Assembly (NCBI RefSeq): GCF_032362555.1
Contig: NC_083508.1
Span: 10,631,001 to 10,695,000, forward strand
Direction of reading: 5' to 3'
Length of the DNA: 64,000 nt
Source: Amyelois transitella
Lineage: Eukaryota > Arthropoda > Insecta > Lepidoptera > Pyralidae
Below, piece after piece: positions 58,865-63,703 of the stretch. A model generated the notes under the pieces. That model was not told where the DNA came from and searched no databases. It worked only from the letters and a program-made list of their open reading frames with translations. Each line of letters opens with the position of its first letter. Positions within the stretch are counted from its first letter, which is position 1. The position numbers were made by a program, and so were the translations under genes.

Positions 58865-61800
58865 TCAGTTGTTCTTGTCTATGTTGTGGAAAGCCCAGTT
58901 GATCGAAGTGGTCCAGGAATTCTTTATGGCGTCGTCGAACTTCCATCTGAAGTGGGCCATCGCTTCTTCTTCGGACAGGTTCATCACCTGTGACAATAAA
59001 GTTTGGCTTAATGGTGTTCTTAAATATTTGTAAAACAAATGTATATAAATCAGTAATTTCATTCTTGGACGTTCGACTAATACTAATTACTACATCAACT
59101 TAGAACACAGGTGCAAAATCTGGCACATATGTTGATCTAAGCATAATAAAAGTCAAAAATTTAAAAGTGATATGGCTGCCATAAATAGATTACTATTATT
59201 ATTGAAAACCCCCACCAGACAAGAATGTATTGTGTCACCTTGACTGTTCAACCTGATGACTGTGAACGTAGACAAAGAATTAATGAGTTAATCGTCATGT
59301 ACCTTCTCTATACTTCCAATTAAGACATTTACATCATCCGTCGAAGAATAGATTATAAAATGTGTTCAGTCTGAATTTTTGTATATTAGTATTTAATGGC
59401 TAAATCCGACTTGACTCACGAGAGTCTCCCTGAGGTACTGCAAGTCCTTCTCGGAGCTGAGCTCCTGGAGGCCGGTGGACATCATCATGGAGAACAGCGA
59501 CAGGATCAGGTGCCCGTGCTTGCGGAGGATCTTGAAGGCCTGCCAATAAAAAAATAACGAATGAAGTACTCAAATAGGCTAGTTAAAAAACGAATAGAAG
59601 GAAATAGTATTATGGAAGGCGTCTACCATGCGAAAAGCATAAATTTAGAATTTTCGTTTTCCGTACTAAATTAGCTGCTGATACATCGAAAACAAAATGT
59701 ATTTTATTTTCAACTCTTCTGCATACCTAAATATATACTTAACGGCCGACTTCTAATTCCTTAAATACTCCTCCTAAATTTATTGTACAGACAGACAGAC
59801 GGTCAGTCAGAATCAATTTAGTGCAACCTCTGAAATTAATTATAATTATTTCAAAATATAAAATCATTTTCACTCTTGTATGAAAGAAATGACCTCACCG
59901 TCTCACAGTGTTCCCTGAAAATCTTGAACTCCAAAGGCTCGTTGTCCCCGGTGCCGCGTTGGCCCTTATTGATGACGTGTATGAAGTCGTGCGTTAGCAC
60001 AAACGGCACCCGTTCCCTTTTGATGCCGTACTTGTGTTTGAAGTGACCGAGAAAATGGCCGAAGTCTATGTGGAATAGCTGTAAGAAACGTTTGAATTGA
60101 TATTAGATGTTGCCCGCGACTTATCCGATGTGTTTTAATTATTTACTAGCTGTGCTCGCAACTTCGTCCGCGTGGAATAGTTATTTTGGACATCATTGAA
60201 GCCCTCAAGGATGAATGATTATCCCCGTTTTTTTACATTTTCCATTATTTCTTTGATTATAGTTGCAGCGTGATGTTATATAGCCTAAAGCCTTCCTCGA
60301 TAAATGGGTCTATTCGACCTAATTTTTCATTCGGACCAGTAGTTCCTGAGATTAGCGCGTTCAAACAAACAAACTCTTCAGCTTTATAATATTAGTATAG
60401 ATATATAGCACTGTATCCGGGACAGCTCATGTTGAACTATAGAGCTCACCAGTACAAGACATTGTTTCGACGCCCAGAAATTTATTACTAACTCGCGAAG
60501 TGAAACGACAGGGATAGAGATATGGGTGAGAGCAGAATAGCAACACTAGACGAGTGCATATGATTTCAATTTTCTTAGTCAGTCGCGCGTTTTCCCACGT
60601 TCGCATAATGAAAAAAGTGTAGCTAGAGCTCCAATATTTTTACTGCACTGATAAAAAAGTAACCTTACTGACCTAATCTGGTATCATGGTCACTCCGGAC
60701 TTCTCTCCAAAGAGGCAAAACACCAGGAGGAAGAAGACAAATTAAAAAGTAACCATGACATAGTCACCTGTCCGTTCTTCTTCAGCATAATATTGTCCGG
60801 GTGTCTGTCCGCGATGCCCAGCACATACGTGGCCACACAGTACCCGGCACAGCTCATGGTGAACTCGTCCACTGCCTTGTTGAAAGCCTCGTTGTGGTGC
60901 TCTTGGGCTTCCTCTGCCTTCTTCTTCAGCCACTCTGGATAATTTTAAAAAGTCATACTATGCGATAATGAAATAACTTTTGTAAAGCCTCAGATCGATA
61001 TCCTCCTTTTTAAAGTCTCGAGTTTCTAAAACCTTTTCTTAAGTGTAACAATAATTTTTCTAAAAACCTAATAATCGCGAACAAACAAACATATATACAG
61101 GTGAAACTGAGAACCACCTTTTTTTGAAGGGGGCTTAAAAAAAGAGAACAGAAGTACTCACGCAGCAAACTACCCCGTTTGATGGTGGACGCCGCGTTGA
61201 AAGGCGCGTTGTTCTTCTGTATATGAGCGATCGTTTTGGCGTCTTCCACCACCTCGATCATACCGACTTCGTTCTCCATCGATATGCAGTTGTAAAGGCT
61301 CAATCTGAAAGAGGTATTTTAGTTTACATACACATAGTCCACGTCTATATCCCTTGCGAGGTAGACGCACTGTCTACAGACAACAGTTGAAAAACTGAAA
61401 GGGTAAGTTCAGCTGTTTGGCTTAATGATAGTATTGAAATACAAATAGTGACTGGTTGCCCCATTGCCTACAAGAGGAATCCCAGTTTTAAAAGCCTATT
61501 CCTTAGTCGCATTCTTCTGAAGGGATCTCACCTAGTCTTATTGACGAGGTTATATCAAAAGACTTATGAATGTGTATGAAGCATGCCATCGTGTAGTCTA
61601 TGCCCCCCATCCACCCCATCGAGAAAGGAAAAACACTAATCTGAAGTCATATATCCGTGTTTCTTCCACGGTAGATCCATGATGCTTACTGAAAGATTAA
61701 AGTCTCTGCTTCCCTTCAAGATCTTCCCCTATAAAAAAAATTACCGACCTAAAGTCATATCCGTGACTCTTCCACAACCGATTCATTCTTACTGTAAGAT

Positions 61801-63703
61801 TATAGTTTCTCCTAGATCTCCAGCTATAAAAAAAAACAACCCACCTAAAGTCGTAGCCGTGACTCTTCCACAAGCGGTCCATTCTTACTGTAAGATTATA
61901 GTTTCTCCTAGATCTCCAGCTATAAAAAAAAAAACAACCCACCTAAAGTCGTAGCCGTGACTCTTCCACAACCGATTCATTCTTACTGTAAGATTATAGT
62001 TTCTCCTAAATCTCCAGCTATAAAAAAACAACCCACCTAAAGTCGTAGCCGTGACTCTTCCACAACCGATCCATTCTTACTGTAATATTATAGTTTCTCC
62101 TAGATCTCCAGCTATAAAAAACAACCCACCTAAAATCGTATCCGTGACTCTTCCACAGTCTGTCCATGATGCGCAACATCTGCAAGGTGAACATGTCCTG
62201 CCGCAGGTCGTCCCCTATCTTCAGGATGATGCGGATGTCGGCGCCGTACGGGTCCACGTTCTCGAACGTCACCATCAGCGGGCGCATCTTGCTGTCCATC
62301 ACGCGGCACACTTCCGGCCTGGAAATGATTCACGTACAGTCACGTCTATATCCCTTGCGGGGTAAACAGAGACTTCTTCGGTCGGACGATGGTCTTTAAA
62401 AGACTAATAGGCCACGTTCAGCTATTTGACTTTAAGAATTAAATGTTTCAATTATTTTTTTGTTATGGGCCTTTTTATACAGTATCCATAAATGGTGAGA
62501 ACTGAGAACTCATAAATCGTTATAACTGGATTTATTTTATGGTTTAGGTACACTTGTCTATGATACGCCAGTGCCGGTAGAAAATTGCCATTTTAACTAT
62601 AGAAGCATCTTGTAAGATTTTGGTTAAGTTCGAGCTACTAATGTGCCTGTCCTAGAGAGGTCATATTAATTTTTATATTCGTGCCGGTAACCACACGGAA
62701 TAGAATAATTTTTTTTTATCAAAGGCTAAAATCAATTCACTGTATCACCTGTGTTACTTCTTTAGTAGTCTCTGCCTACCCTCCGGGAAAGAGGCGTGAT
62801 TTTATATATGTATGTATGTACTTCTTTAGTTATAGACTAGTAAATGACTTACCTGACTTTCTTACACACGTAACTAGGGTTGAGAGGAGATACGAAGTCC
62901 TTCAATATGTCTACACAGTGCTGTTGTTGAAGCTGCTCTTGTAGATATTTCTTCGCTTTGCCTATTTCCTTCATTTTTCTAACGTTTTGACTAACCCCTG
63001 GAATGAAAATATTAGGTACTTACATATGAAATTGGCGTTTGGTATAGGAGGAACATGAAGTCTGATATTTATATACATATATATATCATATATAATATAT
63101 ATATACACATATATATATTATAAAAATCTATCATATATATATACATACATATATGTATTTGTCCCGTATATATATATATATATAAATATTATAAAAATAA
63201 ATACATACATATGGTCACGTCTATATCCCTTGCGGGGTAGACAGAGCCAAAAGTCTTGAAAGGACTTAATGGCCACGTTCAGCTATTTAGCTTAGTCGCC
63301 TTTACGACATCCATGGGAAAGAGATGGAGTGGTCCTATTCTTTTTTGTATTGGTGCAGGGAACCACACGGCGTATTCAAATTTTTTATATGATTTAATAT
63401 GGTTAACTTAATATGATATACCTGTGTTTCAAATTGTAAAGTGTGATAATTGTAATAGGTGTAAACCGTTTTTGTCACAATAAATAAATAAATAAATTAT
63501 ATATTAGTTATATTTTTTTTTAATATCTCAAATTAACGATTTTTGGCTCTGAAATATAAAAAGAACCAAAACACTTACATTTGAGTTTGTCCAAGCACTC
63601 AATTTGCCTCAGCAATATATTGATGTGCTCCTGACATCCGCGACAGTACGCCTCTAGCAGCAACCCAAACCGCACGGCTACAGATTGCATGTTCATTTCA
63701 GAT
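58865..63703 (-). CDS. Pi3K92E: Class I PI3-kinase catalytic subunit (p110), 3' part
   Basis: Lipid kinase that phosphorylates PtdIns(4,5)P2 at the 3-OH. Eight exons are visible: 63703-63579, 62997-62853, 62318-62130, 61304-61162, 60934-60768, 60078-59899, 59539-59420, 58987-58865 (stop 58865-58867). They encode the last ~396 residues; the rest lies beyond the right edge. Order: end of the helical domain ([14 protein letters not shown]), kinase N-lobe (MDSKMRPL, then ATP-binding Lys in [11 protein letters not shown]), [10 protein letters not shown] hinge region, catalytic loop [13 protein letters not shown], basic activation loop [13 protein letters not shown], then the C-terminal helix [14 protein letters not shown]. 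The basic activation loop and C-terminus fit class IA (p110 alpha/delta-like) rather than class II or III. Oddities: Ala replaces the usual Gly before DRH, and the intron after exon 62318-62130 holds a tandem array of copies of that exon's end. The Drosophila symbol is by orthology. Confidence 0.95.
60146..60401 (-). mobile_element. Short non-autonomous Helitron
   Basis: Minus strand starts TCTATACTAATATTATAAAG and ends in GTTGCGAGCACAGCTAG. Shares GGACCAGTAGTTCCTGAGAT (plus) with 20466-20636. In the PI3K intron between the exons with the catalytic loop and the DFG. Confidence 0.6.
61319..61515 (-). mobile_element. Family A element, 5'-truncated
   Basis: TACATACACATAGTCCACGT to ATTCCTTAGTCGC. 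Its (TATG)n end is about 16-20 bases upstream of the acceptor of PI3K exon 61162-61304. Confidence 0.65.
61641..62129 (-). repeat. Tandem array of PI3K exon-end copies with splice donors
   Basis: Five head-to-tail units start at the donor of exon 62318-62130: 62037-62129 (93 bp), 61943-62036 (94), 61845-61942 (98), 61749-61844 (96) and a diverged 61641-61748 (108). Each corresponds to roughly the last 75-90 bases of the exon plus the first bases of its intron. On the minus strand each unit ends in codons for [10 protein letters not shown] followed by TTTAG and GTGGGTT in the newer copies. The oldest unit (61641-61748) still shows IGEDL, matching IGDDL of the real exon, and keeps CATCATGGA, which the others have lost. 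The real exon must splice from its own donor at 62129 or the protein would be altered. Confidence 0.93.
62335..62430 (-). mobile_element. Family A fragment
   Basis: CAGTCACGTCTATATCCCTT to GGCCACGTTCAGCTATTTGA. It begins about 16 bases upstream of the acceptor of PI3K exon 62130-62318. Confidence 0.6.
62765..62822 (+). mobile_element. LINE 3' tail fragment
   Basis: GTAGTCTCTGCCTACCCTCC, then GGGAAAGAGGCGTGATTTTA and (TATG)n. It ends about 30 bases before the PI3K exon 62853-62997 on its donor side. Confidence 0.65.
63064..63185. repeat. AT-rich compound microsatellite
   Basis: Mixed TATA, CATA and TATG runs next to a family A element in a PI3K intron. Confidence 0.85.
63200..63371 (-). mobile_element. 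Family A element, internally deleted
   Basis: ACATACATATGGTCACGTCT, GGTAGACAGAGCCAAAAGTC, then the head GGAACCACACGG. Joined to an AT microsatellite in a PI3K intron. Confidence 0.75.

Follow-up and report, generated by a model that had tools for sequence, protein, structure and literature searches.

Tandem copies of an exon-intron boundary, several with their splice donors, in a p110 gene of the moth Amyelois transitella

The window considered here is a stretch of 64,000 nucleotides (nt) from the pyralid moth Amyelois transitella (contig NC_083508.1, positions 10,631,001 to 10,695,000). Its main feature is an array of partial exon copies in an intron of a PI3K p110 gene, which lies on the minus strand and starts at about 75140 in window numbering, outside the window. 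Joined together, the seven exons in the window give one reading frame of 354 residues, a perfect match to the C-terminal end of P0001, the database entry for this species named ‘PI 4,5-bisphosphate 3-kinase catalytic subunit delta isoform’. Five Pfam domains (p85-binding, Ras-binding, C2, helical and kinase) mark this protein as a class IA p110, and the part encoded in the window aligns to the p110delta chain 5dxu_A in a structure search (E 1.4e-109). A class II PI3K identity was also considered and is ruled out by the structure and Pfam searches. In a protein tree, the Amyelois p110 branch is 2.6 times as long as that of its sister Galleria (0.26 versus 0.10), indicating accelerated evolution of a usually conserved kinase.

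A preliminary description of this DNA, made from its letters alone, reported five repeated units beyond the donor of exon 62130-62318. Such an array is indeed present, as seen both with Tandem Repeats Finder (61729-62157, scores 710 and 731) and from the units themselves. The five units, U1 to U5, follow the donor on its 3' side and occupy 62129-61643 on the minus strand, with a period of 93-98 nt (Table 1). The repeat extends across an exon-intron boundary, in that copies of exon sequence together with a splice donor stand head to tail. A search of 61300-62330 with Rfam gave no match at gathering scores.

Table 1. Features of the p110 locus and of the copied units (window numbering).
Feature	Position	Strand or location	Remarks
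p110 exons	62853-62997, 62130-62318, 61162-61304, 60768-60934, 59899-60078, 59420-59539, 58865-58987	minus	joined reading frame
Source exon, PI3K p110	62130-62318	minus	about residues 745-808 of P0001; kinase-domain N-lobe; ends TTTTAG/GTGGGTT, phase 2
Exon tail, 38 nt	62130-62167	minus	closely copied by U1-U4 (sequence comparison)
U1	62037-62129	minus	93 nt; donor same as the real one; 31-residue in-frame extension if the donor is used
U2	61943-62036	minus	94 nt; possible 75-nt cassette exon inside; Asp to Asn
U3	61845-61942	minus	98 nt; possible 75-nt cassette exon inside; core 5 bases off the exon, all synonymous
U4	61749-61844	minus	96 nt; possible 75-nt cassette exon inside; weaker donor GTCGGTAA; Asp to Asn
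U5	61643-61748	minus	about 106 nt; decayed, donor lost; 5' part still recognisably exon-homologous
Following p110 exon (LSLYNC...)	61162-61304	minus	acceptor CTTTCAG/ATTG
Copy of exon 68537-68764 (exon 6)	68411-68506 (outside the window)	own downstream intron	decayed, 96 nt, 79%; 31 nt past the exon end
Copy of exon 60768-60934 (exon 15)	60409-60438	minus; own downstream intron	30 nt, 87%; blastn E 1.9e-5; separate from the array

Units U1 to U4 have the same layout, namely GTGGGTTG, a run of T, ATAG with 37 further nt, and then a 38-nt core (ATG...TTTAG). The run consists of 6, 7, 11 and 9 T in U1, U2, U3 and U4, respectively, and its variation accounts for the differences in unit length. In the core, these units are identical to the exon at 31-33 of 38 positions (82-87%), whereas in the 41 nt that start with ATAG and lead up to the core they match it at only 21-22 positions (51-54%). 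The same 41 nt match U5 at 32-33 positions in the three units compared. In a test with shuffled sequences, the 5' part of U5 is related to the exon (P 0.0006), while those of U1 to U4 are not significantly so on their own (P about 0.1); the descent of the latter from the exon is thus visible only through U5. The units had been described as copies of the last 75-90 bases of the exon, which, by way of U5, is acceptable as a statement on ancestry; as a statement on present similarity, it applies in U1 to U4 to the 38-nt core only. Among themselves, U1 to U4 are 95-98% identical in either part (three pairs compared) and must therefore have a fairly recent common origin. U5 has a 2-nt insertion in its core, stops in the cassette reading and no donor.

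The exon, U1, U2 and U3 share the same donor, TAG/GTGGGTTG, with a predicted duplex energy of -9.5 kcal/mol against the end of U1 small nuclear RNA (snRNA, not to be confused with unit U1). The other five p110 donors in the window range from -5.5 to -11.8 kcal/mol. The preliminary description spoke of preserved TTTAG-GTGGGTT donors and of several competing 5' splice sites. This is fair for U1 to U3, with their identical predicted donors, but not for U4, where GTCGGTAA reaches only -6.1 kcal/mol, nor for U5, which has no GT at that place. Upstream of each core, the T run and TATAG form an acceptor-like site, with 9-13 pyrimidines out of 16 in U1 to U4; the seven p110 acceptors in the window have 9-12. 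The segment between TATAG and the donor is 75 nt long in each of these units and runs from phase 2 to phase 2 without a stop, whatever the length of the T run. Acceptor, donor, matching phase and open frame are thus found together in U1 to U4 and not in U5. The preliminary description mentioned neither these T-run-independent cassettes in U2 to U4 nor the partial copies of two other exons. A second acceptor, CAG/TAAG, was rejected as the start of an in-frame exon; in U1 to U4 the resulting exon would be 43 nt long and contain an in-frame stop.

Donors and the acceptors that follow them are 18-23 nt apart, the exon donor and the U1 acceptor 18 nt. This is below the minimum size of an intron, and therefore neighbouring units, or the exon and U1, cannot be spliced together. 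To judge from this geometry, U1 would be no cassette and at most a 93-nt extension, while splicing from the exon to U2, U3 or U4 could occur. When the exon donor is read through, U1 is open in frame with the exon and adds the 31 residues already noted in the preliminary description, followed by a stop early in U2. This 93-nt frame rests on the run of six T; with their different T runs, the other intact units are 94, 98 and 96 nt long.

The preliminary description was struck by the synonymous character of the differences between exon and units, and proposed to count synonymous and replacement changes for each unit. Over the last 12 codons plus AG, these counts, which are unpolarised differences, are 6:0 for U1, 6:1 for U2, 5:0 for U3, 6:1 for U4 and 5:4 for U5. 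The all-synonymous differences of U1 and U3 and the single Asp to Asn replacement in each of U2 and U4 are therefore just as had been described. Variation within the array is unevenly spread: outside the core, with the T run excluded, only 2 of 49 positions vary, and core third positions are more variable than all others (4/12 versus 3/75, p 0.006). The cassette varies at two sites in its 5' part, and both changes are replacements in the cassette frame. Under a model in which the exon changes only silently and the copies are neutral, six synonymous changes out of six have a P of 0.0003-0.0026; this test, like the others reported here, was chosen post hoc, when the pattern had already been seen.

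Decayed copies in the same gene put this in perspective. There are two of them, one being U5 from the array itself and the other the copy of exon 6, which has 9 synonymous and 11 replacement changes; pooled, they provide 29 changes, 14 synonymous and 15 replacement. Compared to the exon-6 copy, Fisher tests give p 0.024 for U1, 0.046 for U3 and 0.091 for U2 and U4. Compared to the pooled controls, p is 0.027 for U1, 0.053 for U3 and 0.052 for the changes of the array taken together (8 and 1). If a synonymous share of 14/29 is expected, 6/6 has a P of 0.013 and at least 8/9 a P of 0.015. The verdict that free decay should not look like this was therefore too strong, as matched controls give p 0.02-0.09 and P 0.01-0.03. 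The pattern is mildly unusual, borderline against matched controls, and not decisive.

A second regularity concerns the two parts of the units. Each of U1 to U4 resembles the exon more in its core than in its 5' part (Fisher 0.0015-0.010), although the four tests are not independent since the units share their ancestry. Neither decayed control has a significant asymmetry (0.34 for U5, 0.31 for the exon-6 copy). Furthermore, the grouping of the sequences flips between the two parts. Of the sites in the 5' part where U1 shares its base with just one of exon and U5, all 11 group it with U5 and none with the exon; in the 3' core and donor, 3 sites group it with U5 and 11 with the exon. Fisher tests of this change give 1.2e-4 for both U1 and U2, 2e-5 for U3 and 0.004 for U4.

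The explanation that we consider probable is a local tandem duplication across the exon-intron boundary that was expanded by unequal exchange, leaving repeat DNA in which splice signals happen to be kept. The last 90 nt or so of the exon and the first 15 nt or so of the intron would have been duplicated in tandem into the p110 intron, and the outer copy, U5, would then have decayed. A hybrid unit may next have arisen, by gene conversion or unequal exchange involving the exon tail and the old copy; its 5' part would be old and diverged, its 38-nt 3' end fresher, similar to the exon and equipped with an intact donor. This hybrid would finally have been amplified to four. The splice signals would persist owing to the younger age of the 3' ends and not through selection, and normal mRNA would be spliced at the donor after 62130. 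The asymmetry of U1 to U4 and the flip in grouping occur at the same place, as expected if unequal exchange had created such a hybrid with a fresh donor. Same-strand repeat pairs are frequent in the neighbourhood, the gene has two further partial exon copies in downstream introns, and P0001 is free of an insert, all of which speaks for this explanation. Tandem arrays undergo unequal exchange. For this reason, and because nothing shows the copies to be in use, exchange is ranked first.

Several observations weigh against this explanation. At the core sites where exon and U5 differ by a replacement, U1 to U4 side with the exon in 4/4 cases. At the five synonymous core sites, the ratio of agreement with U5 to agreement with the exon is 3:2 for U1 and U2, 2:3 for U3 and 4:1 for U4. 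Silent sites thus give recent exchange no support, and six silent differences in 12 codons are a lot for a recent event. An old split combined with constraint at the protein level fits the pattern of core sites at least as well. The flip in grouping does not separate the two, since selection on the core beside an unconstrained U5 would give nearly the same table. Of the five core positions that vary within the array, four are third positions with synonymous changes (P 0.002-0.011). In simulations of neutral copies beside an exon that changes only silently, run 4000 times at each of six depths, the pattern appeared in 0-0.1% of cases. Exchange from the exon would not by itself be expected to remove this discrepancy, as the copies would drift freely after the last exchange. 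A fall in G or C at third codon positions (GC3) along the exon, from 49/51 codons to 6/11 in the last 11 (p 0.001), was looked at as a sign of exchange and left aside as a mere hint, since several other exons also show a fall toward their ends, though a smaller one.

A rather unlikely possibility is that the array is a plain neutral tandem repeat without any exchange with the exon, the similarity over 38 nt and the synonymous bias being a chance outcome of a small sample beside an exon that changed silently. Sites are few, only five varying in the array core, and the bias does not go beyond the p of 0.02-0.09 against matched controls. However, the asymmetry between 5' and 3' parts is significant in each of U1 to U4, with the shared ancestry mentioned above, and in neither control, and no more than 0.1% of simulated runs are as synonymous as the array. 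The preliminary description had left a choice between translated copies and a young or homogenised array with silent change in the exon. In its simple form, the second option is disfavoured by the idealised tests of the synonymous pattern, but only weakly by the same-gene controls.

It is unlikely, too, that the units serve as alternative exons and are translated, now or in the recent past, with selection keeping the 38-nt core. U2, U3 and U4 would then each be a 75-nt cassette that adds 25 residues, a linker and a second 13-residue segment, to the kinase N-lobe, and U1 a 93-nt extension. The phase-matched geometry in U1 to U4, which does not depend on the T run, is in agreement with such a role, as are acceptor pyrimidines comparable to those of real p110 acceptors, U1-U3 donors equal to the real one, the synonymous bias, and the retention, at all four core replacement sites, of an exon state that U5 no longer has. 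Nevertheless, P0001 contains no insert, and its name bears no isoform number, which presumably also speaks against a variant. Homologues were examined as the best 120 of 3427 hits in a database clustered at 90% identity, in which minor isoforms could be hidden; none of the other 119 p110s in this set has such an insert, and four short peptides of the insert occur in none of the 120 proteins. The two changes seen in the cassette's 5' part are both replacements, an insert in the N-lobe would probably harm the kinase, and with decayed copies of the same gene at 14:15 the bias remains borderline. Nothing positive thus speaks for the translation proposed in the preliminary description beyond this bias and the open frame. 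It could be imagined, as a still more doubtful variant, that in-frame micro-cassettes under protein-level selection yield kinase-domain variants with a 25-residue duplicate or a 31-residue extension, the choice among them being limited by steric exclusion between neighbours. A p110 model of Drosophila rubida (P0096) has an unrelated insertion near the same place, probably an intron that this model leaves unspliced.

Finally, it is very improbable that the unit cores came from the exon of another p110 gene, lost or unseen, that had diverged silently while remaining identical in protein: although Dendrolimus kikuchii has two p110s (P0005 and P0019, with consecutive locus numbers and 76% identical) and the long Amyelois branch resembles that of the second Dendrolimus protein (0.34), the 192.6 kb surrounding the gene contain no other p110, a search of the whole genome at the DNA level with exon and array led to this locus only (best candidates scored), and a single Amyelois protein is found among the best 120 hits.

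Comparable arrangements are known from other organisms. In human genes in segmental duplications, internal tandem repeats are described at exon-intron boundaries (PMC2812944), as is the case here. Each change in the human genes was checked against transcripts, whereas the present array concerns one insect gene, is known from DNA and has units with a diverged 5' part. A duplication in potato likewise crosses an intron-exon boundary and carries splice signals along. It involves the acceptor side, namely the end of intron 1 and exon 2, and detection of a new intron is reported for it, whereas the present array multiplies the donor side. Tandem exon duplication leading to mutually exclusive exons (PMC3228551, PMC6071210) has in common with the array that similar coding units lie side by side and have splice sites in matching phase. 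It differs in that here only an exon end is repeated, with gaps of 18-23 nt, and no isoform is found in the 120 p110s. The literature search, in the portions of text that it returned, contained no report of this array or of a splice array in a lepidopteran p110.

If the array is ordinary repeat DNA, it offers a clear example of an exon-intron boundary multiplied in place, with several equally strong predicted donors beside an essential kinase exon, and a natural test of how the spliceosome chooses among copied donors. If the cassettes are used, they would be a lineage-specific means of varying the catalytic domain of PI3K.

The array is not the only partial exon copy in this gene. The copies of exon 6, with a stop in the exon's frame, and of exon 15 indicate, together with the array, that partial exon copies in introns arose more than once here. 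Two shorter matches of other p110 exons, of 17 and 19 nt (E 0.03-0.04), are probably due to chance; in this search the bounds of one exon (69800-70090) were guessed. Same-strand repeat pairs within 1.5 kb and with a bit score of at least 40 number 40 in the 192.6 kb examined. Eleven of them start in the p110 gene, four being the array and one the exon-6 copy, and 29 lie elsewhere, several of the latter resembling dispersed repeats. Related repeats of about 75-100 nt are also scattered in p110 introns (63197-63294, 64011-64108 and 64349-64445, as well as 62339-62427 with 63214-63288), and these are probably short dispersed elements.

Elsewhere in the window, an open reading frame (ORF) at 23547-23846, similar by eye to two ABC-like ORFs, has no match in Pfam. 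The latter two are on the minus strand, one at 45196-45504 with an ABC transporter ATPase domain above the Pfam cut-off and one at 38071-38394 with a weak match, below cut-off, to an ABC-2 membrane domain; they probably represent one or more ABC transporter genes.

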